The position numbers were made by a program, and so were the translations under genes. The notes under the pieces were generated by a model, which was not told the DNA's origin, ran no database searches, and saw only the letters and a program-made list of their open reading frames with translations. From a virus: DNA of 27,935 nucleotides. Location of the stretch: the IMG/VR virus record IMGVR_UViG_3300025889_000744, positions 1 to 27,935 of that record; one strand, 5' to 3'. Numbering within the stretch: the first letter of the stretch is position 1; every line of letters begins with the position of its first letter. Shown here in pieces: positions 1-15,640 of this stretch.

Positions 1-2412
1 GTAGCTACTGTTGATGTTGCAACAGGTATCACCCCGGACTCTGCTATACAGCAGTTAGATCAGTTTGCTAACTTAACTCCCCCGCAAGGAGTTTCTGCAT
101 CACAGTTAACATCAGCTGTTGCAAATGTAAAAGAAGCTGTATTAAAAGGAACAATAACACCCCAGCAATATCAAGCAGCACTAGCTGAAGAGTTAAATAA
201 AACAACAGCTGCACAGGGTGTTACCCGTCCTCCCATAACTGTAGACGAAATTAGAACACTTAGCGCACCCGCCGAAGCTGCACAAGTTAGTGGTGCAGAA
301 GTTGAAGCAGCCCGGGCAGGAGTAGCAGACTACACTATTAGCCCGGATGCTTTTGTGCCGGAGGTTACTGTAGGCAAAGTTAATCTAGCACCTACCCCCG
401 AAGCAGAAAAACAAGAGCGACAGGCTATAACAGGTACTGCTCCTACTGGTGTTGAAGCACAGATACTAGATAAGATTAGTTATACAGCATCTCAGGCTAG
501 GGCAGTTAAAGGGGCAGCTGCTAAGGGCGAAGCTGCAACAATGGTGGCACAGGTTGGTAATATACCTGAAAACATCACGGCTGCTATTGTAGAAGACCCG
601 GCTAAAGTTGAAGCCCAGATAGATAACGAGCCTATTAATGTACAAGCTGCTGTTGCTGCACTCCCGCCTGAAGCCCTTGTCTCTTCTCAGATGGAAGCAC
701 TTCTTGGTGGGCTAGAGTCTGGTGAAGTCCCCTCTTGGGCTAAACCTGCGGTAGCTGCTATTGAACAGAATCTTGCACAGCGGGGCATGAGTGCCTCCAC
801 TGTAGGCCGTGATTCTTTGTTTAATGCAATTATTCAGAGTGCGTTACCTATTGCACAGTCTAATGCACAGGCGTTACAGGCTAGGGCTGCACAGAATTTG
901 TCCAACCAGCAACAGGCAAACTTGCAAACTTCTCAGTTGGACATGACAAGGCGCATGCAGAATCTAGCTAACCAGCAGACAGCAGGAAGCCAGACTGCCC
1001 AGATGGCTAATGATATGGCTCAGTTGCAGAGTCAGTTTAAGCAACAGGCTACGTTAACTAGTGCAGAACAGGCACAGCAGGTTAGGTTGCAGAACCTACA
1101 GAACCAGCAACGTGCTGCCGAACTTAATGCGCAGAATCAACAGGCAATGAATGCACAGAACCTGTCTAACACGCAGCAGGTTGAGTTAGCAAATTTACAG
1201 ATTCAAAGCCAGACTGACTTGGCTAACATGTCTGCTGAGAATCAGGCCAAGCTTGCAGAGTTTCAGACAGCTGCGGAGTTTCTTGCTAAGAACGCCGACT
1301 TTAAACAGCAGATGGAATTAGCTAACCTTAGTTCAGAACAACAGACAAGGCTGGCTAATTTATCGGCTTTGAATCAGGCGAGTGCAGATAATCTTAGTGC
1401 TGCACAGCAGACTGAATTAGCAAACTTAAATGCCCGGATGCAGACTAACTTAGCTGCTGCCGAAATTGCAAAACAGCTTAATGTAGCCCAATTAAATGTA
1501 GATCAGCAACGTGCAGTGCAGAACGCATCTATGGTTGCTAACATAGACCTAACTAAGTTTAATGCTGCACAGCAGGTTGAGTTGGCTAACAGCCAGTTTA
1601 TGCAATCAACTACAATAGCCAATATGAACGCTAGGCAGCAAGCTGCTATGCAGAATGCTACTGCCTTGGCTTCAATGGATTTAGCTACTGCGGATCAGCG
1701 TACTAGACTAGCTATACAAAATGCACAGAACTTTTTGGCTTTAGATATGGCTAACTTGTCTAATCGGCAGCAAGCACTTGTTCTTGATCAGCAGATGCAG
1801 CAGCAGAGACTGTTGTCAGATCAGGCTGCTACAAACGCTGCCTTGCAGTTTAACGCAGCTAACAAACAACAGGCCCAGCAATTTATGGCTAACTTGTATA
1901 CGCAGACAGAGCAGTTTAACGCTGTCCAGACAAATGCTATGGCGCAGTTTAACGCTACTGAACAGAACAGGATCGCTGCTATAAACGCAGGAAATGAAAT
2001 TGATATAGCTAAGTTCAACAACCAGCTGACTACACAGCTAGAGCAGTTTAATGCCCAGATGGAGCAGCAACGCGAACTTTGGAATGCCCAAAATGCACAG
2101 GCAATCCAGCAGTCTAATATTGAATGGCGCAGACAGGCTAACACAATAGACACTGCTGCACAGAACGCTTCTAACCAAGCTGCTGCGCAGATGGCATTTA
2201 ATCTGACGGCTGCTGAGTTGTCTAACATTTGGCAGCAATTGCGTGATGAGGCTACATATGCTAGAACAGCATATGAAAATGAACAGCAGCGTAAGACAAC
2301 ATTGTATGCTACAGCGTTGTCTAACGAAGCAAGTATTTCTGAAACAGGCAGTACATCTGCTATGGACAGAGTAGTTAATATAATTGCGAGCATACTAGCG
2401 AGTGGTGGTTAA
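1..2412 (+). CDS. Structural protein built of 11-residue coiled-coil repeats (5' end outside window)
   Basis: The frame is open from base 1 with no stop, so the gene begins left of the window; a GTG at 355 is only an internal codon. At least 803 residues are present. The first ~170 visible residues are Ala/Val/Pro/Glu-rich with low complexity. From the codon at 853 to 2304 the protein is 44 consecutive 11-residue units rich in Asn, Gln and Ala (for example ELANLSSEQQT), without any insertion or deletion. The last ~35 residues break the pattern. No signal peptide can be judged because the N-terminus is missing. It is the first of a tight + strand series of virion-type genes (2 bases to the next gene), so a role as a long rod-like virion or ejected protein is inferred. 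I recognise the style from marine phage structural regions but cannot name the family. GC and codon use are ordinary for the window. Confidence 0.85.
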   Translation, partial: VATVDVATGITPDSAIQQLDQFANLTPPQGVSASQLTSAVANVKEAVLKGTITPQQYQAALAEELNKTTAAQGVTRPPITVDEIRTLSAPAEAAQVSGAEVEAARAGVADYTISPDAFVPEVTVGKVNLAPTPEAEKQERQAITGTAPTGVEAQILDKISYTASQARAVKGAAAKGEAATMVAQVGNIPENITAAIVEDPAKVEAQIDNEPINVQAAVAALPPEALVSSQMEALLGGLESGEVPSWAKPAVAAIEQNLAQRGMSASTVGRDSLFNAIIQSALPIAQSNAQALQARAAQNLSNQQQANLQTSQLDMTRRMQNLANQQTAGSQTAQMANDMAQLQSQFKQQATLTSAEQAQQVRLQNLQNQQRAAELNAQNQQAMNAQNLSNTQQVELANLQIQSQTDLANMSAENQAKLAEFQTAAEFLAKNADFKQQMELANLSSEQQTRLANLSALNQASADNLSAAQQTELANLNARMQTNLAAAEIAKQLNVAQLNVDQQRAVQNASMVANIDLTKFNAAQQVELANSQFMQSTTIANMNARQQAAMQNATALASMDLATADQRTRLAIQNAQNFLALDMANLSNRQQALVLDQQMQQQRLLSDQAATNAALQFNAANKQQAQQFMANLYTQTEQFNAVQTNAMAQFNATEQNRIAAINAGNEIDIAKFNNQLTTQLEQFNAQMEQQRELWNAQNAQAIQQSNIEWRRQANTIDTAAQNASNQAAAQMAFNLTAAELSNIWQQLRDEATYARTAYENEQQRKTTLYATALSNEASISETGSTSAMDRVVNIIASILASGG
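853..2304 (+). repeat. 44 tandem hendecad (33-base / 11-residue) protein repeats
   Basis: Splitting the translated frame into consecutive blocks of 11 residues from codon 853 gives 44 blocks in constant register. Asn occupies position 4 in 27 of 44 blocks; position 2 or 3 is commonly Leu, Phe, Met or Ile; positions 9-10 are often Gln-Gln. Copies are diverged at DNA level, so this is an old protein repeat rather than a fresh DNA tandem repeat. Hendecads (3.67 residues per turn) are known to form nearly straight to right-handed coiled coils. Confidence 0.85.
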
Positions 2413-3534: not shown

Positions 3535-4107
3535 ATGAATCAAGATATGGCAGATTATATTACTAGGGCGGGACGGGCTATCCCCGGGCAGTCCCTGACT
3601 AATGATCCTGAAAGCCCACAGCCTTTTGAAAAGTCTCCTGAGTTTACAGAGATGCGGGATGCTTTAGAATATCTTTTTGTAGCTATAACACAAGAAGAAA
3701 CCTATGTACCACTAATGCAAGAAATTGCTAGTGGTTATCCTATTATGGATTTTGTACAGGTGTTTTTGTTTGAAGGGTTTAACAACGGCAAGTGGAATCC
3801 CGACTTAATGCTTCTGTTAGCTGAACCTATGACCTACATGATTATGGCTTTAGCTGAACGTCTTGATATTGACTACGTTATATATCGGGGTGAAGAGCAA
3901 GAAGATGCAGCTGAAGACCAAGTTCTTGGTATTAAAGGTTCAGAAGAAATTGTAGAAAAAATTAAAAAAGCTAAAGGTGTACCTTCTGGAATGTTGCCCC
4001 CCACGATAACAGAAGCAATTGAAGAAATGCCTGTAGACAGCTTGATGGCTCAACCGCCTGTAGAAGAAGCTGAAGAAGCCCCCGCCAGTTTGATGGCACA
4101 ACAGTAA
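3535..4107 (+). CDS. Small acidic structural-region protein
   Basis: 190 residues. The start ATG follows the previous stop by one base and has GGGAG about 10 bases upstream. The core (residues ~15-125) has the pattern of a family I recognise from marine phages, near tail or virion genes: a proline-rich entry (SLTNDPESPQPFEKSPEFT), a helical segment, then NNGKWNPDLMLLLAEPMTYMI. The function of that family is unknown to me. The C-terminus is acidic and Pro/Glu/Ala-rich and contains the short motif SLMAQ twice (near residues 169 and 186), which may be a docking peptide. No membrane segment or signal peptide is visible; the Leu/Met-rich stretch at ~100-115 looks like a buried helix. Its position between virion proteins argues for a structural or assembly role. 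Confidence 0.75.
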   Translation: MNQDMADYITRAGRAIPGQSLTNDPESPQPFEKSPEFTEMRDALEYLFVAITQEETYVPLMQEIASGYPIMDFVQVFLFEGFNNGKWNPDLMLLLAEPMTYMIMALAERLDIDYVIYRGEEQEDAAEDQVLGIKGSEEIVEKIKKAKGVPSGMLPPTITEAIEEMPVDSLMAQPPVEEAEEAPASLMAQQ

Positions 4108-5988: not shown

Positions 5989-8900
5989 ATGCCTATTATT
6001 AATAAGAAAAAAGCAAGAACTACATTAACAGAAGAAGATTATCAAACTAATTTTGATAATGCGATTTCTTATTATGAAAATAATAAAGAAACTTTTGACA
6101 ACTATCAGCCATCAGAAGAAATAAGAGTACAGCCAACAGTTAGTATGTTGGATAATGATGCTGATTTTCAAAACGATGTTGAAATGCTGGCTACTTATTT
6201 TGGTTCTAACCAAAGTGCATTAGGAAGCTTATTTACTGGTAATGCTATTAATCCTGATTATCGCGAATTTTTAAGAGATGGAGATTGGCGGTTAACTTCT
6301 GTTATTGATCGGGCAAAGGCTATGGAAGATGCGCCCGAAGAAGTTAAAGCAGCTTATAAAAGAGTTAGAACTTCATGGGATAACGCAGATTTAAAAGGAT
6401 ACGGGCAATATTTGGAAGCTTTAAAAGACGGTACAATTGATGCCGTAACTGATCCGTTTACTCTTATTTCAATGTTGGCTGTACCTCTTACAGGTGGGGG
6501 TACGGCTGCTGCTGCTACACTAGCCAAAGAAGGCGTTAAAAAGAAAGCAATGCAGACATTAAGTAACATTGCTCTTGCAAAAACTGCCGGTACTGGGGCT
6601 GTTGGTGGCGGTATATCAGGCGCAGCTTGGTCAGGAGTAGATGACTTTTATAGGCAGCAGACAGAACTTTCTGCTGGGATGATTGATGAGTTTAGTAATG
6701 CACGTTTAGCTACCGCTATAGGTCTTGGTGGTACATTTGGTGCGGGCTTGGGGGCTGTTGTTGGTGGATGGACAAACAAAGCTGCTCAAAAAGTAGAAAA
6801 TCAACTCATACCTGAAACTAGGAGATTAACTTACCAAGGCGAGAATGTTGGCAAGCCTACTTTATTTCTTGAAAAATTAATAACTGGGGATGAAGGTCTT
6901 CCGTTTGCTGGAGATGTAACCGAAGAACTAACTTCTTTGTTAAAAAGAATTCCTATAAGGTCTGCGTCAATTGATGAAGCAGGAGAATTAACAGGAACTA
7001 GGGGCTTCCCTGTTGATTTGGATATAAATAAATGGGAAGTGGTAGATGATGTTGCTGCTCGTCTAACTAAAAAATATGGTGGTGGTGAAGCTACTCAGCA
7101 AGAACTTGCTGACCTCCTTAGATCATATTTAAATACAGCTAAAAGAAAAAATCTAAACGGTGAGCAAATCATTGAAGGGTTACAAAGTGTATTCTTAGAC
7201 TACAGGACTGCTGCTTTTAGAGAAGGGACACCTTTACCAACTACAGCTAGATACCAGCCTTTTGAAGGCGGGGTCGGGCGTGTTGACAGGGTCGGTCGCC
7301 CCGAACCTGATCGCATTGTCACCCGATCTAAAGTTGATGACCCATTAGAAACACAGGGGCTAATCCCCAATGCTGAAGAAAATGCAGCACAGAAGCTGGG
7401 TAATAGGCTGTTGTTTAATACTGGTAGACTGTTAAACAAATTGAATGCTACTGTGCTGGCAGGTAGAGCAACCGATTTAATAAGCCCCTATACAAAGCAT
7501 TCAAAAATTGCTGCGGAATTGGAAAAAAGATTAAGGTATGATTCTCCTATTAAAATTACCGGATCAAAAGTAGGAGTAGACGATGTTCTTCAGGAAGATT
7601 ACTTTGAAACATTTAGAACTAACTATGGTAAGTTTGTAACTGATTTTAAATTTATATATGAACCTATAGTTTTAAATGCTAAAGGTGAATTGGGCGATAA
7701 CGTCAATGATTTTTTAATTAAAGCTTTGCGAACAGGAGAAATGCCCAAAGAGGCTAGTCCTATACTACAGCAAGCAGCCAAAAAAATTCGTGCGCTATTT
7801 GATGAGCGTGGTGTTGCTATGGGTATGGAAGACATTCCAGAAAACTACATGCCCCGCTTGTGGAAGCGAAGTGCCATAGAAAATAATCAGTCTGAGTTTG
7901 AAAGCATGCTGGTTAAATCTGGGTACAGCGCAGATGAAGCTAACTCAATTACTGAAAGCATGATAAACAAAAACATGGACATGCTGATTGCAGATGGAGG
8001 CCCGTCCGATACTATATTCCTAAAACCCCGAGTGTTAGAAAAAATTACTAACGATGACATGTTTTCTAAATTTTTAGAAAATGATTTGCGTGTTATAGTT
8101 AATGAATATGGCAGTCAGTCAGCCAGACGAATTGCAAAACAAAACATTCTAGGAATTAAAAACGAAAGCGAGTTTAAAAAATACTGGTTGGAAAGCATTA
8201 AGAAAGAACTTCAAAATGCTGACTTTACTAACACAGATATCGCTAAAGCACAAAAAGATATACTAGATGTATATCGTTCTATTACAGGCGAAAACTTAGA
8301 TAGGTTCGGGTCTACAGGGCAGAGTATTGTTGATGCTTATTCTTTGGGTACAAGGGTAGCACTACTTCCGCTTGCTACTTTGTCCAGCTTAACTGAAATA
8401 TTTATTAATATTTCTAAAGCTGGTGTACGCAATACTGCTAAAGGATTTTTTGGAGCCTCTGAAAATTCATTCAAAACTATATCAACTCAAGCTAAAAACA
8501 AGCTTCTTAAAGAAGGCTATACCGAACCTGAAATATGGCGGGAGATGCAAGAGATTGGTCTTGCTATGGATCAGGCAGCAGCTGATGTTACTGACAGGCT
8601 GGCTGGTGAAGCCCTTTCTACAGGAAGAATGCGTAAATTAAACAACGTATTTTTCCGGGCTAACATGCTAGACCAGTGGACAAAGTTTGTTCAAATGTCT
8701 TCATATATCTCCGGCAAAAATATGATCGTAGATAACATTGAGGCTATTGGGCAGAACCAAGGACTAGCTGCAAGCAGACGTATAATGAACAAGCGCAGAG
8801 AACTAGCTGAGTTTGGAATTAAAGTTGACGATGCTCTAGCTTGGTACAATGGCGGTATGCAAACTGATGATCCTTTTATGAAGCAAATTCAAAAAGGTGC

Positions 8901-11691
8901 GGGGAGATACACTAACGAAGTTATTCTTAATCCATCAGCTGCCTCCGGCTTAAAACCCTTACTGCATTCTAATCCTAAATCTAGTGTGTTCTTCCTGTTG
9001 ATGGGCTATCCGGCTGCATTTACAAATACTATTCTTAAAAAAGCTGTTAGTAAAATGGTAGACAATCCTGTTGGTAATGTCCCCAAAACATTTGCTGCTG
9101 CTTACATTATGACTGAGACAGCTAGGTTTACTAACTGGGCTAGAAGCCACGGAACAAGCGAAGAAGACGGGCCAGAAGCTGCATACCAAAAAGCATTCTT
9201 GCGTTGGGGCGGTGCTGGTTCTTATCTTGATATGTTTCAGAGGGCGCAGACAAGTGCAAAATATTATGACACTGGTACAATAAATTATATTGCTGCTCCC
9301 TTTGGGCCGTTAGCTGGGGATGCATTGAAGCTGGTTAAAACTGGAAATATTGCAGAATTTGTTGGAACAAAAGTTCCGGGTTATGGTGCGATATCTACAG
9401 TAGGCGGTCAGGAAGCTTTAGATAATTATAGAAAGTTTTTAAGGGATGCGGATAAAAATATAAAAGAAGCCGTAACGCCTAAAGAAGAAAAGCCGTTTAG
9501 CATGTATGCTAAGGGAGGTGTTGTATTAGACGTTCCTAAAGTTCCTGAAGAACCCGATGAGCGTATAGATAAAATGACAGGACTACCTTATAACGAACAG
9601 GCGGGTGCTGCTTTCATTGATGAAGAAGATCGTCAAGGTTTTGCTTTGGGCGGGAAGATCGCACAAAAAGTTGGTAAACCTATAAGTGATTTTTTAAGGA
9701 AGGCTTTAGTAAGTGAAGAACCTTTGGATAAGATAGCTAACCCAAAATATTTCAATTTAGATGAAGACACTTTCTATGGGCTGACCACAGCAGTAGAAGA
9801 AACAAAAGTTAAGTTTGATTTGAACAAGGTAACTGATCCAGATGACTATCAGTTTGATGAAGCCAATGATTATTTAACTGAAGTGTACCGCGAAATAACT
9901 GGGGAATCACCAGCAGAAGCCCCATTAGGACGTATACTTGATTATGAAGAGGCAGTAACAGAACCTTATATTACACGGACAAAGCAAAGTGAAGAAATTC
10001 TCAATCCTAAAGTTGAGTCTATAAGAGAAGATATGTATCTGCTAGAACTAGAGGCTAAAAACAATCCTGAAATTATGGATATGGTAGATGAAGTTTTTGG
10101 TGATATGCCACAGGGTACTAGTTTAGAATATACCCCGCCTGTCGTAAGTGAAGCATCTAGAAATAAAAGTAGGAAGGCGTTTACCGAAAGGTCTGATAAA
10201 AAAGAACCTGTCTATAGAGCAACCAGTTCGGGACAAGATACTGAATTTGATATTGCAATAGCAGGTTCTGATGAAATAGGTATGCATGTAGGGTCTTCAG
10301 GCTCATCTCATATCATAGCTAGACAGGCTATGTATGATAAAATGGACGCACCAGATTTTCTAGCGCAGCAATTTACCAAAAAAGAAACAGATAGATTCTT
10401 TAAAGATCAGTCGGATGTAGCCAGAACCGAACCATTTATTAACCCAATAGCTATGCAAAAAGGATATATACAGGTTCGTAATCCGCTTGAATTAGAGGAT
10501 ATTGGTCGTTGGGATGTTTATACTAGGTTAGGTGATCCTCGCGAAAAAACTAAAACTATGCGGGCTATAGTTGCACAGTCTGCTAGGCTGACTAATATGT
10601 CAGATGAAAAAAGAAAAGAAGCTTTATCTGGTTTGGAACGTCTGGCTAAAGATGTTTTAGATGCTAATATATATGGGCAGCCTACTGATCCAGTAGATAG
10701 ATTAAAAGTATGGGCATTCTCTAAAAGATTTAGAGAAGAGTTAGAAAAGCTGGGATTTGATTCTATAAAGTATAAGAATGAGGTTGAACTTTCTGCCCCC
10801 GGAGAAGACCCCTATTCTTATATATTGTTCAAGCCGAATCAGTTTAAAACTTTCAATGCTTCATTGTTTGATATAAATGATCCAAGAAGTAACTATGTTG
10901 AAGGCGGTAAAATAGCTAAGTCTATCTTCCAATCTATTGCTAACAAGCTGAGAAAGGGGGCTGACGTAGCAGGTACACAGGCCACTCGTTTCTTTGGCAT
11001 GACACCGGAAGATATCCAGTGGGCTAAATCACTCGGCATGAAATATGGTCAGCGAGAAGAGATGGACGGGCGGGGAGACGCAGCACGACATCTTGCTTTA
11101 GGTTGGTTGGCTAAAAATTCTAAACGCCCAGAGACAGCCAAGTTCTTTATCAATGCTAGAGAAGTTATATCCAACGTCCCTGAACGGGAAATGGATCAGT
11201 TTAATAACAACCTTGGTTTTGCTATGGATGCCCGGGATAGGGCTGAAGCAGAGGAGCGTATAACCAAACTGATAGATGAGCAGCAAGCCCGCTATATGAC
11301 TCCCGCCCAAAGTCAGGAGTTACATGGTTATAAAAAAGGCGGTTACATACATCCAGAAAACTTTGAATTCTTACAAAGCTACCATGATGCAGTAGTGCGT
11401 GGTGGTATGGCTGGAAAGATGGAGGGAGATGATGTAACCATGTACATCAAAGGGCTGGGAGTAAATGGTAAGGAGTATCTACTTCCTAGCTATGACCCCG
11501 AAAAGGGCACAATACTTTCAGATAAAGGGACTGTAATGAAATTCAAAAAGCTGATAGATACTGGTGTTATCAAAGGCTATGACAGTCCTGAACAAGCCGA
11601 AGAAGAACGTAAAAAGATGTATGATGTTATTGTCAAAAAACGTCAGAAGCGAGTACATGGTGGTAAGGTCATGAAGGCGTGTGCAGTATGA
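5989..11691 (+). CDS. Giant modular internal virion / ejection protein (1900 residues) with ADP-ribosyltransferase-like domain
   Basis: Residues 1-1174 form the body: a charged N-terminus, then Gly/Ala-rich hydrophobic segments at roughly 145-260 that could contact membrane, then long helical stretches. This fits the last large internal virion protein of T7-like phages (gp16 position). The C-terminal third is a chain of modules, each opened by a Gly-Gly motif at residues 1176, 1221, 1639, 1784 and 1891. The first carries EPDERIDKMTG. The second (about 1405-1635) has VYRAT, GMHVGSS and YILFKPNQFK..LFDINDP, the layout of phage polyvalent-protein ADP-ribosyltransferases. The third (about 1690-1783) has GDAARH and MDQFNNN, resembling DUF6973. 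The fourth (1785-1890) is a conserved-looking unit of unknown role. No good ribosome site precedes the ATG. The stop overlaps the lysin start as ATGA. Module names are inference from motif layout. Confidence 0.75.
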   Translation: MPIINKKKARTTLTEEDYQTNFDNAISYYENNKETFDNYQPSEEIRVQPTVSMLDNDADFQNDVEMLATYFGSNQSALGSLFTGNAINPDYREFLRDGDWRLTSVIDRAKAMEDAPEEVKAAYKRVRTSWDNADLKGYGQYLEALKDGTIDAVTDPFTLISMLAVPLTGGGTAAAATLAKEGVKKKAMQTLSNIALAKTAGTGAVGGGISGAAWSGVDDFYRQQTELSAGMIDEFSNARLATAIGLGGTFGAGLGAVVGGWTNKAAQKVENQLIPETRRLTYQGENVGKPTLFLEKLITGDEGLPFAGDVTEELTSLLKRIPIRSASIDEAGELTGTRGFPVDLDINKWEVVDDVAARLTKKYGGGEATQQELADLLRSYLNTAKRKNLNGEQIIEGLQSVFLDYRTAAFREGTPLPTTARYQPFEGGVGRVDRVGRPEPDRIVTRSKVDDPLETQGLIPNAEENAAQKLGNRLLFNTGRLLNKLNATVLAGRATDLISPYTKHSKIAAELEKRLRYDSPIKITGSKVGVDDVLQEDYFETFRTNYGKFVTDFKFIYEPIVLNAKGELGDNVNDFLIKALRTGEMPKEASPILQQAAKKIRALFDERGVAMGMEDIPENYMPRLWKRSAIENNQSEFESMLVKSGYSADEANSITESMINKNMDMLIADGGPSDTIFLKPRVLEKITNDDMFSKFLENDLRVIVNEYGSQSARRIAKQNILGIKNESEFKKYWLESIKKELQNADFTNTDIAKAQKDILDVYRSITGENLDRFGSTGQSIVDAYSLGTRVALLPLATLSSLTEIFINISKAGVRNTAKGFFGASENSFKTISTQAKNKLLKEGYTEPEIWREMQEIGLAMDQAAADVTDRLAGEALSTGRMRKLNNVFFRANMLDQWTKFVQMSSYISGKNMIVDNIEAIGQNQGLAASRRIMNKRRELAEFGIKVDDALAWYNGGMQTDDPFMKQIQKGAGRYTNEVILNPSAASGLKPLLHSNPKSSVFFLLMGYPAAFTNTILKKAVSKMVDNPVGNVPKTFAAAYIMTETARFTNWARSHGTSEEDGPEAAYQKAFLRWGGAGSYLDMFQRAQTSAKYYDTGTINYIAAPFGPLAGDALKLVKTGNIAEFVGTKVPGYGAISTVGGQEALDNYRKFLRDADKNIKEAVTPKEEKPFSMYAKGGVVLDVPKVPEEPDERIDKMTGLPYNEQAGAAFIDEEDRQGFALGGKIAQKVGKPISDFLRKALVSEEPLDKIANPKYFNLDEDTFYGLTTAVEETKVKFDLNKVTDPDDYQFDEANDYLTEVYREITGESPAEAPLGRILDYEEAVTEPYITRTKQSEEILNPKVESIREDMYLLELEAKNNPEIMDMVDEVFGDMPQGTSLEYTPPVVSEASRNKSRKAFTERSDKKEPVYRATSSGQDTEFDIAIAGSDEIGMHVGSSGSSHIIARQAMYDKMDAPDFLAQQFTKKETDRFFKDQSDVARTEPFINPIAMQKGYIQVRNPLELEDIGRWDVYTRLGDPREKTKTMRAIVAQSARLTNMSDEKRKEALSGLERLAKDVLDANIYGQPTDPVDRLKVWAFSKRFREELEKLGFDSIKYKNEVELSAPGEDPYSYILFKPNQFKTFNASLFDINDPRSNYVEGGKIAKSIFQSIANKLRKGADVAGTQATRFFGMTPEDIQWAKSLGMKYGQREEMDGRGDAARHLALGWLAKNSKRPETAKFFINAREVISNVPEREMDQFNNNLGFAMDARDRAEAEERITKLIDEQQARYMTPAQSQELHGYKKGGYIHPENFEFLQSYHDAVVRGGMAGKMEGDDVTMYIKGLGVNGKEYLLPSYDPEKGTILSDKGTVMKFKKLIDTGVIKGYDSPEQAEEERKKMYDVIVKKRQKRVHGGKVMKACAV

Positions 11692-12044
11692 AGTACTTTA
11701 CAGAGAATGAACTGAAGTGTTCCCACTGCGGGGAACAGGGCATGAACGATGACTTCATGCAGAAAGTAGAAAAGCTGCGTGAGGAGTTAGGGTTTCCCTT
11801 TCCCGTTACCAGCGCATACCGCTGCCCGGAACATCCAATAGAAGCTAAAAAATCTACTCCGGGCGCACATGCTAGTGGTCGTGCAATAGATATAGGCGTA
11901 ACCCATGAGAACGCCTATAAGCTAGTACAGGCTGCTCTCAATTCCGGGTTTACTGGTATAGGTATTAACCAGAAAGGCTCAGGCCGTTTCATCCACATCG
12001 ATGATCTAGATGAAGGCATTCGTCCTACAGTCTGGAGTTATTAA
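11688..12044 (+). CDS. M15-family zinc peptidase, putative endolysin
   Basis: 118 residues from the ATG at 11688, chosen because it overlaps the previous stop as ATGA and has AAGG about 10 bases upstream; a GTG at 11679 has no spacing for a ribosome site. The fold signature is peptidase M15 (M15_3-like): H61-x2-G-x-A-x-D68 (HASGRAID) and H103-I-D105 supply the zinc ligands and catalytic region, and SAYRCPEHP is the usual preceding segment. C11-x2-C14 in the N-terminus is common in phage members. Such enzymes cut peptide cross-links in peptidoglycan. It is the last gene of the late block, the usual place for a lysis gene, and its end overlaps the convergent - strand gene by 20 bases. No signal peptide is seen, so release would need a holin, which is not confidently identified here. 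Confidence 0.85.
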   Translation: MKYFTENELKCSHCGEQGMNDDFMQKVEKLREELGFPFPVTSAYRCPEHPIEAKKSTPGAHASGRAIDIGVTHENAYKLVQAALNSGFTGIGINQKGSGRFIHIDDLDEGIRPTVWSY

Positions 12045-12243
12045 ACGCACATATCTCATCTTCAAGATATTTGTGTAGCCCCTCCAACTTTAACTCAGCC
12101 TCGCTAATTGCTTTATAAATTAGCGGGGCATCTTCTTTTTTGAACACTTTATTTATTTTATCTTTAGGCAGCATACTCATTTCTGTTATCAGGTCACCCT
12201 GCAAATTAATAAGTAACTTAAAAGATATTAGATTCCCTTCCAT
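12025..12243 (-). CDS. Small hypothetical protein, last gene of the - strand block
   Basis: 72 residues, ATG at 12243 inside the last codons of nrdB (16-base overlap). The translation is protein-like: an amphipathic, Leu/Ile-rich first third (LISFKLLINLQGDLITEM) followed by a charged helical segment with Lys and Glu. There are no cysteine pairs, so it is not a glutaredoxin or thioredoxin, which would be the common neighbour of NrdB. Its last 20 bases overlap the end of the convergent lysin gene, and its coding region also contains the + strand late terminator, so part of its sequence is doubly constrained. Function unknown. Confidence 0.6.
   Translation of the reverse strand: MEGNLISFKLLINLQGDLITEMSMLPKDKINKVFKKEDAPLIYKAISEAELKLEGLHKYLEDEICAFNNSRL
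12098..12141 (+). terminator. Rho-independent terminator of the late (+ strand) operon
   Basis: Arms 12098-12109 and 12118-12129 form a 12-bp stem with one G-U pair and an 8-base loop, followed by TCTTCTTTTTT at 12131-12141. It lies 54 bases past the lysin stop. On the - strand the G-U becomes an A-C mismatch and there is no U-run, so it should act only on + strand transcripts. It sits inside the coding region of the convergent gene 12025-12243. Confidence 0.7.
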
Positions 12244-13196
12244 ACCACATTCTCCTGCTTACCACGCAGTCCTGCTTTCATGTAGGCTGTTGCCCTACCT
12301 TCAAAAAAGTTTTGGTGTTCAACGCCAAGCACATCATCCAACCAGTGCAGTGGGTTGTCCTTAACCTTGTAGTTGGGCTTGAGACCCAGCTGTAGCAGTC
12401 TACGGTCAGCTATATAATGAACATAATCACCCATTTCTGATCGGGTTAATCCTCGGATATCACCCATCTCAAACACTAAATCCAAGAACTTTTGCTCCAA
12501 CCTGACCATGTCCCGGCATGCCTGATAGATTTCTTTCTTGAAATCATCTGTCCAAATATCCAGATTCTCCTGAATAAACTCCCGGAACAGGCGGGTCATC
12601 GCTTCTACATGCAGAGACTCATCTTTGATACTGTAACTAACTATCTGGCCCATGCCCTTCATACGCCCAAAGCGGGGGAAGTTTAGCAGGATAACAAAGC
12701 TGCTGAACAACTGTAGCCCCTCGGTGAAGGCACTGTACACGGCGAGGTTCTTAGCAATTGAACCTTTGTCCTTCACTGATATGCGTAGGCTGTTGACATA
12801 CTCATGCTTGTCGGACATCTCCTCGTACTCAGCAAAGGCTTTGTATTCTATCTCGGGCATACCTACCGTATCCAACAACAGGCTGTAGGCGTGTTGATGA
12901 ATAGACTCCATGTTGGCGAATGCGCCCATCATCATCCGGGCTTCCGGCTTCTTGAAGATGCGCATGTAGCGGTCAATGTAACCACTACCTACATCCACAT
13001 CTGACTGAGTGAACAACCTAAATATCTGCGTCAGAAGGTTCTTCTCCTCGTTACTCATGTCCTGCCAATCCTTAACATCATTGTGCAGGGGTACATCCTC
13101 TGGGAACCAGTGCATCTGGTTCTGCTGGAAGTAGTAGTCAAACATCCACGGGTAGTCAAAAGGCTTGTAGTAATCTCTAGTGCTAAGTAAACTCAT
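12228..13196 (-). CDS. nrdB: Ribonucleotide reductase class I, small (radical) subunit
   Basis: 322 residues, AGGAG 8 bases before the ATG. It holds the di-iron site and tyrosyl radical that start ribonucleotide reduction by NrdA. By spacing against E. coli NrdB, the ligands are D66, E97, H100, E159, E193 and H196, and the radical tyrosine is Y104 (E97-SI-H100-QHA-Y104; second half-site KDESLH). All are present, so the subunit should be active. It is a little shorter than E. coli NrdB (376). The C-terminus (RATAYMKAGLRG and beyond) should carry the NrdA-docking tail. nrdA lies upstream, separated by three tiny genes rather than directly adjacent. Radical tyrosine and ligand set point to class Ia/b, requiring oxygen. 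Confidence 0.95.
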   Translation of the reverse strand: MSLLSTRDYYKPFDYPWMFDYYFQQNQMHWFPEDVPLHNDVKDWQDMSNEEKNLLTQIFRLFTQSDVDVGSGYIDRYMRIFKKPEARMMMGAFANMESIHQHAYSLLLDTVGMPEIEYKAFAEYEEMSDKHEYVNSLRISVKDKGSIAKNLAVYSAFTEGLQLFSSFVILLNFPRFGRMKGMGQIVSYSIKDESLHVEAMTRLFREFIQENLDIWTDDFKKEIYQACRDMVRLEQKFLDLVFEMGDIRGLTRSEMGDYVHYIADRRLLQLGLKPNYKVKDNPLHWLDDVLGVEHQNFFEGRATAYMKAGLRGKQENVVWKGI

Positions 13197-13747: not shown

Positions 13748-15640
13748 CTAACCTTCACAACTTAAACAAACACCCAGATCAATGCGGGGAATCTTAATGT
13801 TAACATTCTCTGCTGACCTAGCAGCATCAGACCGCAGGTAGTACAGCGACTTCAGCTTCTTGGCCCCGGCCCAGTGTACATCATTCACATATTGAAGATA
13901 CTCATCGTGAACCTGCTGCGGTTCCGTGGCTTTAGGCGGGACAAAGAATAGGTTAACACTCTGGCTCTGGCAGATATAATCCTGACGCTGATGTGCATGT
14001 TCAATAATCCATATCTGGTTTATCTCGGGGGCAGTTTTAAATATCTCTTTCTGATCCTCGGTAAAGATATCCATGTGTTGAATAGACCCGCCGTGGGCCG
14101 AAATATCCCGCCAAATTTCATCACGTTTTTTCTGGCTACCCGGGAACATCTCAAAGATTAAATCGTCTAAGTATTTATTCTTGACCTTAAAGCTGCCCGA
14201 CAGGGTTTTATGTGTGTACACATTAGCCCGGAACGGTTCAATAGAGGGGCTTGTACCACCACATATAATTGAACTGGAGGCATTAGGAGCCACCGCCATG
14301 AGATGTGCGTTGCGCCTGTTGCTACCGCTTACATCGGGAGCCTCCCCTCTTGCAGCAGCCAGCTGTTCTGTGGCCTCAACTGCCTTAGTCTTAATGTTAT
14401 TGAATGCCCTGTGGTTGAATGCCGTGGCGTACATGCTTTCAAACGGGATGTGGTGTGCCTGAAGATAGGTATGAAATCCCATCGCTCCTAGGCCCACAGA
14501 ACGCTCCCTGTAGGCAGAATAAGCTGCCTTTGTGTAGCCCTCCATGCCCGGCTTAACGTAGCTTTTAAATCGTTTAAAGTTAGCTGTGTACCCGCCCAAG
14601 TTGTTAGTGTCCACGATAGCTGCAATGAAATGCTCTAGCACGTTATCCAGCATTGTGATCAGGTCGGGGATGAAATTATCGTCATCGCTCCACTGGTCAT
14701 AGTATTCTAAGTTAACACTGGACAGGCAGCAGACAGCTGTCCTTTCTTCATTGGTTGCTAGGGTTATTTCAGAACAAAGATTACTTTGCTTTATTTGAAG
14801 CCCCAAGTCTTTCTGTTGTTTGGGCAGGGCTGCATTGCAGGTATCAATGTTAACAATGTAAGGCTCCCCGGTTTCTGCCCGGGTGTTAATGATCTGAAAC
14901 CACAAATCACGGGCCGACACGGTCTTGACCGCAGTGTTGCTCTTGGGGTCTATCAGCCTCCATTCGCTGTCATTCTCTACGGCATCCAAGAAATCGTTAG
15001 TCAGGTTAACTGCGTTGTGCAGGTTGAGGCACTTGCGGTTGATGTCCCCACCAGTAGTCTTGCGCATGGCTATAAACTCTTCTATCTCTGGATGACTGAT
15101 ATCCATGTAAGCAGCGTAGCTACCCCGCCGTGTAACGCCTTGGTTGAAGGCCAGCATCTGGCTGTCTACAACGTGCATGAAAGGGATGGAACCAGTAGAC
15201 TTACTACCGTGAGTAGTATCCACACCATTACTCCGCACATGGCCCCAATAACCACCGATCCCTCCACCTGTGCTTGCCAGCCATATGTTCTCATCATAAT
15301 GAGCAGAAAGACCGTGGCGGGAATCAGGAACAAAATTAAGAAAGCAGCTGATAGGTAGGCCACGGCTAGTTCCCCCGTTACTAAGGATAGGAGTGCTAAA
15401 CATGAACCACATATTACTAGCATAGGTATAAAGTCGCTGTGCAAGACCGAAATCAGTAACCCCTTTGTACGTTGCCCCGTATACAGCAGCCCTAGCAAAA
15501 GCTTCTTGAGCATGAGTTTCTCCTTCCCAGAAATATCTATCTTTCAATGTCGCAATTGCAAAAGCATCCAGTAAAGCCTCCTTGTCGTAATCTATTTTTA
15601 ATCCTAGATATTCCTGCACACCTAATTTGTCATTACTCAC
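13748..15640 (-). CDS. nrdA: Ribonucleotide reductase class I, large (catalytic) subunit
   Basis: 630 residues, GTG start overlapping the previous stop as GTGA. It reduces ribonucleotides to deoxyribonucleotides for phage DNA synthesis. Active-site residues visible: C99 (PISC) and C304 (VCCLS) as the redox pair, N287-L-C289-S-E291 as the radical cysteine loop, Y600-Y601 (LYYLR) of the radical path, and the C-terminal shuttle pair C625-x2-C628 (CLSCEG). The N-terminal ATP-cone (about 90 residues in E. coli NrdA, which is 761 long) is absent: the protein starts straight in the helical domain that precedes the barrel. The enzyme should therefore lack dATP shut-off at the activity site. Encoded with nrdB and a DUF3310 gene, forming a nucleotide supply cluster. 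Confidence 0.95.
   Translation of the reverse strand: MSNDKLGVQEYLGLKIDYDKEALLDAFAIATLKDRYFWEGETHAQEAFARAAVYGATYKGVTDFGLAQRLYTYASNMWFMFSTPILSNGGTSRGLPISCFLNFVPDSRHGLSAHYDENIWLASTGGGIGGYWGHVRSNGVDTTHGSKSTGSIPFMHVVDSQMLAFNQGVTRRGSYAAYMDISHPEIEEFIAMRKTTGGDINRKCLNLHNAVNLTNDFLDAVENDSEWRLIDPKSNTAVKTVSARDLWFQIINTRAETGEPYIVNIDTCNAALPKQQKDLGLQIKQSNLCSEITLATNEERTAVCCLSSVNLEYYDQWSDDDNFIPDLITMLDNVLEHFIAAIVDTNNLGGYTANFKRFKSYVKPGMEGYTKAAYSAYRERSVGLGAMGFHTYLQAHHIPFESMYATAFNHRAFNNIKTKAVEATEQLAAARGEAPDVSGSNRRNAHLMAVAPNASSSIICGGTSPSIEPFRANVYTHKTLSGSFKVKNKYLDDLIFEMFPGSQKKRDEIWRDISAHGGSIQHMDIFTEDQKEIFKTAPEINQIWIIEHAHQRQDYICQSQSVNLFFVPPKATEPQQVHDEYLQYVNDVHWAGAKKLKSLYYLRSDAARSAENVNIKIPRIDLGVCLSCEG

Follow-up and report, generated by a model that had tools for sequence, protein, structure and literature searches.

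ORF1, the first gene of the 27,935-nucleotide viral stretch analysed here (the window), encodes a protein with an uninterrupted array of 11-residue (hendecad) repeats, and among its relatives this array grows or shrinks only in whole multiples of 11 residues, over a range of about 155 to 900 residues. The array, the constraint on its register, a pattern of two hydrophobic seams, the exclusion of proline and a conserved gene cassette are established features of the ORF1 family. We propose, at about even odds (probability roughly 0.5), that ORF1 is a virion-internal DNA-ejection (pilot) protein of HMO-2011-like podophages, the helices of which would lie side by side in an amide-faced conduit. 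Since ORF1 is truncated at the window edge (803 aa, compared with about 1005 aa in L002, a relative that is 96% identical to it), the array makes up the C-terminal portion of a protein longer than the part encoded here. The features are listed in Table 1.

Table 1. Coordinates of ORF1, its landmarks and the genes that follow it in the window.
Feature	Position	Strand	Remarks
ORF1, hendecad-array protein	1..2412	+	803 aa, truncated at the 5' end by the window edge, which is the end of the virus record
N-flank anchor PxWA (W246)	730..741	+	Conserved shortly upstream of the array
Full in-register hendecad run, residues 283-792	847..2376	+	From Viterbi model; starts at near-invariant Pro283 (LPIAQ)
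44 hendecads of the first-pass annotation, residues 285-768	853..2304	+	From translation
C-terminal anchor QSNIEWRR (W709)	2110..2133	+	Within the array; W246-W709 distance 463 = 1 mod 11
ORF2, 372 aa	2415..3533	+	N-terminus amphipathic and cationic, also a hydrophobic segment; weak match to a tape-measure PHROG, E 0.005
ORF3, 190 aa, cassette member	3535..4107	+	Same place in isolates
ORF4, 612 aa	4121..5959	+	Position of T7 gp15 / P22 gp20 by order only; no family match
ORF5, 1900 aa, large virion/endolysin protein	5989..11691	+	T7 gp16 position; phrog_7348 (endolysin) 1e-191, phrog_6958 (virion structural) 2e-25

Translation of positions 853-2304 yields 484 residues, which divide into 44 units of 11 with zero slips; Asn occupies position 4 in 27 of the 44 units, and Leu, Phe, Met or Ile occur at positions 2-3. 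The first-pass annotation had read the repeats in this way, and the run is even longer (about 46 units): a cyclic 11-state Viterbi model in which slips are permitted returned a single unbroken run of 46.4 hendecads. The self-identity of ORF1 reaches z values of 8.0, 8.3, 6.6, 9.2 and 5.9 at lags of 11, 22, 33, 44 and 55 residues, whereas no lag exceeds z = 4.8 in any of 2,000 shuffles, and the proposed 11-residue period thus stands well above chance. The window array is 11-periodic throughout, with a KD power of 0.3 at 7/2 and no heptad segment.

A single proline occurs in the 35,301 array residues of 104 representatives, in which the longest proline-free stretch is 865 residues; the window array contains none after Pro283. 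AlphaFold2 predicts the window protein at low confidence (mean pLDDT 57) and as helical across the array, with helices at residues 302-386 and 588-732 and shorter broken helices between them. In the model of the short relative L204 (72 sequences), predicted helices span residues 186-316 (131 residues), 320-387 (68 residues) and 391-457, and the mean pLDDT per 10-residue block is about 56-85 with a peak of 84-85 at residues 301-350. Disorder or short broken helices had been named in the first pass as grounds to reject its reading; short helices do occur mid-array in the window model, and the helices of 131 and 68 residues in L204 are predicted at about 58-85. A Foldseek search of the PDB identified no solved fold that matches the array protein, and the confident matches in BFVD looked like members of the array family. 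Sequence searches of Pfam, PHROGs and the PDB with ORF1 and 20-72 relatives returned chance matches only.

A classical hendecad coiled coil (a-d-e-h) does not describe the array, which lacks the single hydrophobic stripe of such a coil. In the window array, the hydropathy signal at 11/3 has a power of 0.0 and that at 11/5, the second harmonic of the helix, a power of 21; the averages over the 104 representatives are 0.5 and 16.6, respectively. On an 11/3 wheel, hydrophobic residues form two seams about 170 degrees apart: one at positions 5 and 2, with Gln/Asn at position 9 between them, and the other at positions 3, 7 and 11, which adjoins the Asn at position 4. The seams part an amide face from a charged face of the helix. 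Polar residues, mainly Q, S, T and N, occupy positions 6 and 10, where 1-2% are hydrophobic, and positions 8 and 1 are 42% charged. Of the hendecad reading in the first-pass annotation, the period, the helical nature and the unusual Asn/Gln content are supported, and the classical coiled coil is not. Judged from its composition, a helix with seams so far apart could contact a neighbour on either side, in the manner of a sheet or large barrel.

Periods of 11 residues and Ala/Gln richness are also found in LEA proteins and apolipoproteins, and the low-confidence monomer prediction of the window protein would suit a surface-active or disordered 11-mer array that lies on membranes or fills space. 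We regard this explanation as improbable, since the amphipathic power at 11/3 is zero and an exact register over 155-903 residues is unexpected for a disordered chain.

To compare array lengths, each relative was anchored on the Trp before the array (PxWA) and on a Trp in its C-terminal part (WRR), two anchors that flank most, not all, of the array. The distance between them equals 1 mod 11 in all 224 distinct relatives and takes 22 values from 155 to 903 residues; if the classes were free, the chance of 22 lengths in one residue class would be 11^-21. The N- and C-terminal lengths of the same 224 proteins are scattered over all mod-11 classes, which indicates that the flanks are unconstrained. 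All 12 isolates checked obey the rule. An artefact caused by sliding of the C-anchor model along the array was rejected, as the model has a single match in 221 of the 224 proteins and the outer W+35 and R+55 are fixed (W at +35 in 216 proteins and P at +36 in 219). No published account of the repeat or of the mod-11 rule was found in the literature searched. Such a whole-multiple-of-11 rule across a six-fold size range is an unusually clean mark of structural selection.

Arrays of the family comprise about 17-80 hendecads. Parsimony on a FastTree tree of the flanks gives at least 35 length changes, a count that is approximate because the flanks used for the tree are short. The steps include single units and also ten units (463, 573, 683, 793 and 903). 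The anchor distance is 199-353 in HMO-2011 gp25 and its isolate orthologues, compared with 463 in the window protein. Six relatives (L082, L087, L094, L079, L081 and L088) have anchor distances of 683-903, with 55/110-residue super-periods and up to about 80 hendecads.

The pattern is kept at the protein level, because the units have neither synonymous-codon similarity nor a tandem DNA repeat. In the window, the DNA of the units is just as similar as their amino acids demand (z between -0.7 and 0.7), and Tandem Repeats Finder did not find a 33-bp array. These results bear on the possibility that the array is a neutral by-product of slippage or unequal recombination on 33-bp repeats, with no structural selection. 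The 110-residue steps and the 55/110-residue super-periods of the longest arrays, which are traces of block duplication, do reveal past duplications. However, the residue pattern and the exclusion of proline hold across 104 divergent representatives, and the 11-residue steps persist although the DNA units of the window are unalike, which renders a neutral origin highly improbable. DNA slippage as the sole cause is out, given that the window has no synonymous similarity and no 33-bp array.

The array gene has more than 580 matches in IMG/VR. Among the relatives with the same gene order are the SAR116 phage HMO-2011, the Roseobacter CRP phages, the pelagiphages HTVC103P/104P/115P/033P and the podophages CHOED, MQM1 and the Pseudoalteromonas phage Slicky01. 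HMO-2011-like phages rank with the most abundant marine phages. HMO-2011 gp25 and its isolate orthologues are annotated only as 'hypothetical', and the gene has no Pfam family and no consistent PHROG. It is located after the tail genes and before the genes of 372, 190, 612 and 1900 aa, and in the isolates examined it is likewise accompanied by an ORF5-type large endolysin/virion gene and partners. T7 and P22 cassettes of similar order encode ejected proteins (PMC8954989). From this gene order we infer that ORF1 is a virion protein, as the first-pass annotation had labelled it; virion proteomics, cryo-EM, cryo-ET or a structure for HMO-2011-like phages or any member of the array family was not found in the literature searched.

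Several further features were observed around the cassette. ORF2 starts (2415-2530) with a Lys-rich amphipathic stretch, KIFKGVKKVFKKIGKGIKK, and in L082 a 33-bp tandem repeat directly after the array gene (10354-10428) encodes ORF2-like Gly/Lys/Phe 11-mers. A Peptidase_M15_3 gene (PF08291, 6e-15; window 11679-12044, + strand), the GTG start of which overlaps the end of ORF5, probably encodes a lysis or wall-cutting enzyme. The small and large subunits of a ribonucleotide reductase are encoded on the minus strand (12228-13196 and 13748-15640), and with its small chain the enzyme is of class I type; unlike the window, HMO-2011 and CRP-13 are annotated with an adenosylcobalamin-dependent class II ribonucleotide reductase. 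In HTVC115P (L291, 9534-9983), an annotated toxin-activating lysine-acyltransferase gene separates the array gene from the cassette gene that follows. In HTVC033P (L025, 5106-7220), the array gene is immediately preceded by genes for two 2OG-Fe(II) oxygenases and a putative ferrochelatase.

To search for similar proteins, we built a hendecad profile of the family so that the periodic pattern alone scores. Scanned for hidden kinship, the ejection proteins of T7, P22, Sf6 and P-SSP7, two tape measures and the P22 needle all fail to match the profile. The pilot protein H of phiX174, which forms a decameric helical tube of three hendecads and eleven heptads with N/Q/R at 18 of its 23 inward, lumen-facing positions (PMC7354561), scores 22.9 bits at residues 141-177, a value that one of 2,000 shuffles reached. 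The H protein of G4 scores 23.7 bits (0 of 2,000 shuffles), while that of alpha3 scores 10.8 bits and is not a match. Only one of the 11 registers scores positively on H, and in this register the H glutamines at positions 1 and 8 fall on array positions 10 and 6; p is 0.019 when the hendecad columns are permuted. H outscores 788 of 789 non-family ORFs. The match supports an H-like way of working, not membership of the H family.

The sole exception among these ORFs is a 619-aa protein with amide-rich hendecads (87 bits) in a probable prophage of Sphingomonas baiyangensis (L117, 6999-8858). This protein matches phrog_4287, 'DNA ejection protein' (E 2e-5), and its gene adjoins a virion-structural PHROG gene. 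The match lends weak support, because two other phrog_4287 relatives have no clear array, and it may partly reflect composition. The prophage is a possible cultivable test case.

The cassette and the helical nature of ORF1 would be the same for an internal head protein that is not ejected and instead builds a core, or a scaffold that organises DNA, around the portal. Its amide-rich faces could contact packaged DNA, and the array length is unrelated to the envelope need. This role appears unlikely to us, as the T7 and P22 cassettes of this order encode proteins that are ejected (PMC8954989) and the array length is unrelated to genome size in isolates. The anchor distance is 210-221 in isolates of 63-66 kb and 353 in several isolates of 54 kb. 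A capsid ruler was rejected on the same figures, since the array does not lengthen with the genome. The link to capsid diameter that the first pass had drawn is not supported in MQM1 either: with a capsid of 70.6 nm and a tail of 9.2 nm (PMC10410586), this phage has an array of about 21 hendecads, which as one helix would measure about 35 nm.

The first-pass annotation had also considered a needle. An external tail needle or fibre would be a trimeric coiled-coil rod. Hendecads are known in trimeric fibres, and in P22 the gene for the needle immediately precedes those for the ejection proteins. We disfavour this assignment as distinctly unlikely: the single hydrophobic stripe is absent (power 0.0 at 11/3), the P22 needle does not fit the family profile, the MQM1 array as one helix is far longer than the 9.2 nm tail (PMC10410586), and the CRP phages are described as short-tailed (PMC6918029). 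A tape-measure protein, that is, a ruler with 11-residue marks, is a still poorer candidate. In some siphophage tape measures, 11-residue repeats do carry W/F markers and vary in number (PMC3271669, PMC5099701); in units 31-38 of the window array, Phe/Trp recurs at position 3, interrupted once, and the array family changes length stepwise. However, there is no long tail to measure, as the short MQM1 tail illustrates, and the TP901-1 tape measure has a power of 50.6 at 11/3 and 0.0 at 11/5, the opposite of the array, and does not match the profile.

The ejected conduit or tunnel, which was already raised in the first pass, is the best hypothesis. The C-terminal array of ORF1 would form a near-continuous α-helix with opposed hydrophobic seams at positions 5-9-2 and 3-7-11. 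Copies of the array would pack side by side, joined along these seams, and build a wall, in the simplest case a tube; its Gln/Ser/Asn face (positions 6 and 10) would look one way and its charged face (positions 8 and 1) the other. Once ejected together with ORF2-ORF5, the tube would prolong the very short tail across the envelope, and the uncharged amide face would line the path of the DNA, as in the lumen of the phiX174 H tube. We propose that the array length changes only by whole hendecads because every unit must stay in register with its neighbours. A single straight helix would extend about 76 nm for the window array and over 120 nm for the 903 class, which exceeds the envelope need, so that folding back or stacking must be assumed.

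Tentatively, and with well under even odds, the array may be a modular DNA-delivery conduit, the length of which is set by the count of identical-register hendecads, up to about 80 units. If so, its two opposed seams together with a lumen lined by amides would make it an exceptionally long α-helical barrel system that arose independently of the phiX174 H tube. The strict length rule makes envelope crossing by short-tailed phages directly testable with small in-frame deletions, and, if the array forms a conduit, its naturally occurring length variants would supply a graded set of helical DNA channels for biophysics and design.

HMO-2011 gp25 and its orthologues in the CRP, HTVC, CHOED, MQM1 and Slicky01 phages belong to the same family as ORF1. 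T7 gp14/gp15/gp16 and P22 gp7/gp20/gp16 are helical and resemble it in cassette layout and gene position, with ORF5 at the place of gp16; however, such an array occurs in none of them, and ORF1 has no sequence, PHROG, Pfam or PDB match to them. The tape measures of TP901-1 and staphylococcal phages share the variable count of 11-residue repeats, the helicity and a role in DNA transit, but siphophage tape measures set the length of a long tail and carry one 11/3 stripe with W/F markers, whereas the array has two stripes at 11/5. The H proteins of phiX174 (PDB 4JPP) and G4 have helical 11-residue repeats and in one register resemble the array in their Gln/charged/hydrophobic pattern; the phiX174 tube, like the array, has an N/Q-rich face and, as is proposed for the array, serves DNA delivery in a phage without a long tail. 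H is not detectably homologous to the array family and belongs to a different virus realm, and alpha3 H does not match. The H tube is 17 nm long and changes from three hendecads to 11 heptads, whereas arrays of the ORF1 family run for about 17-80 hendecads with no heptads. Helical phage delivery proteins are already known, while a hendecad array that has two seams and an amide face and varies in length only by fixed steps appears to be a new form among them.
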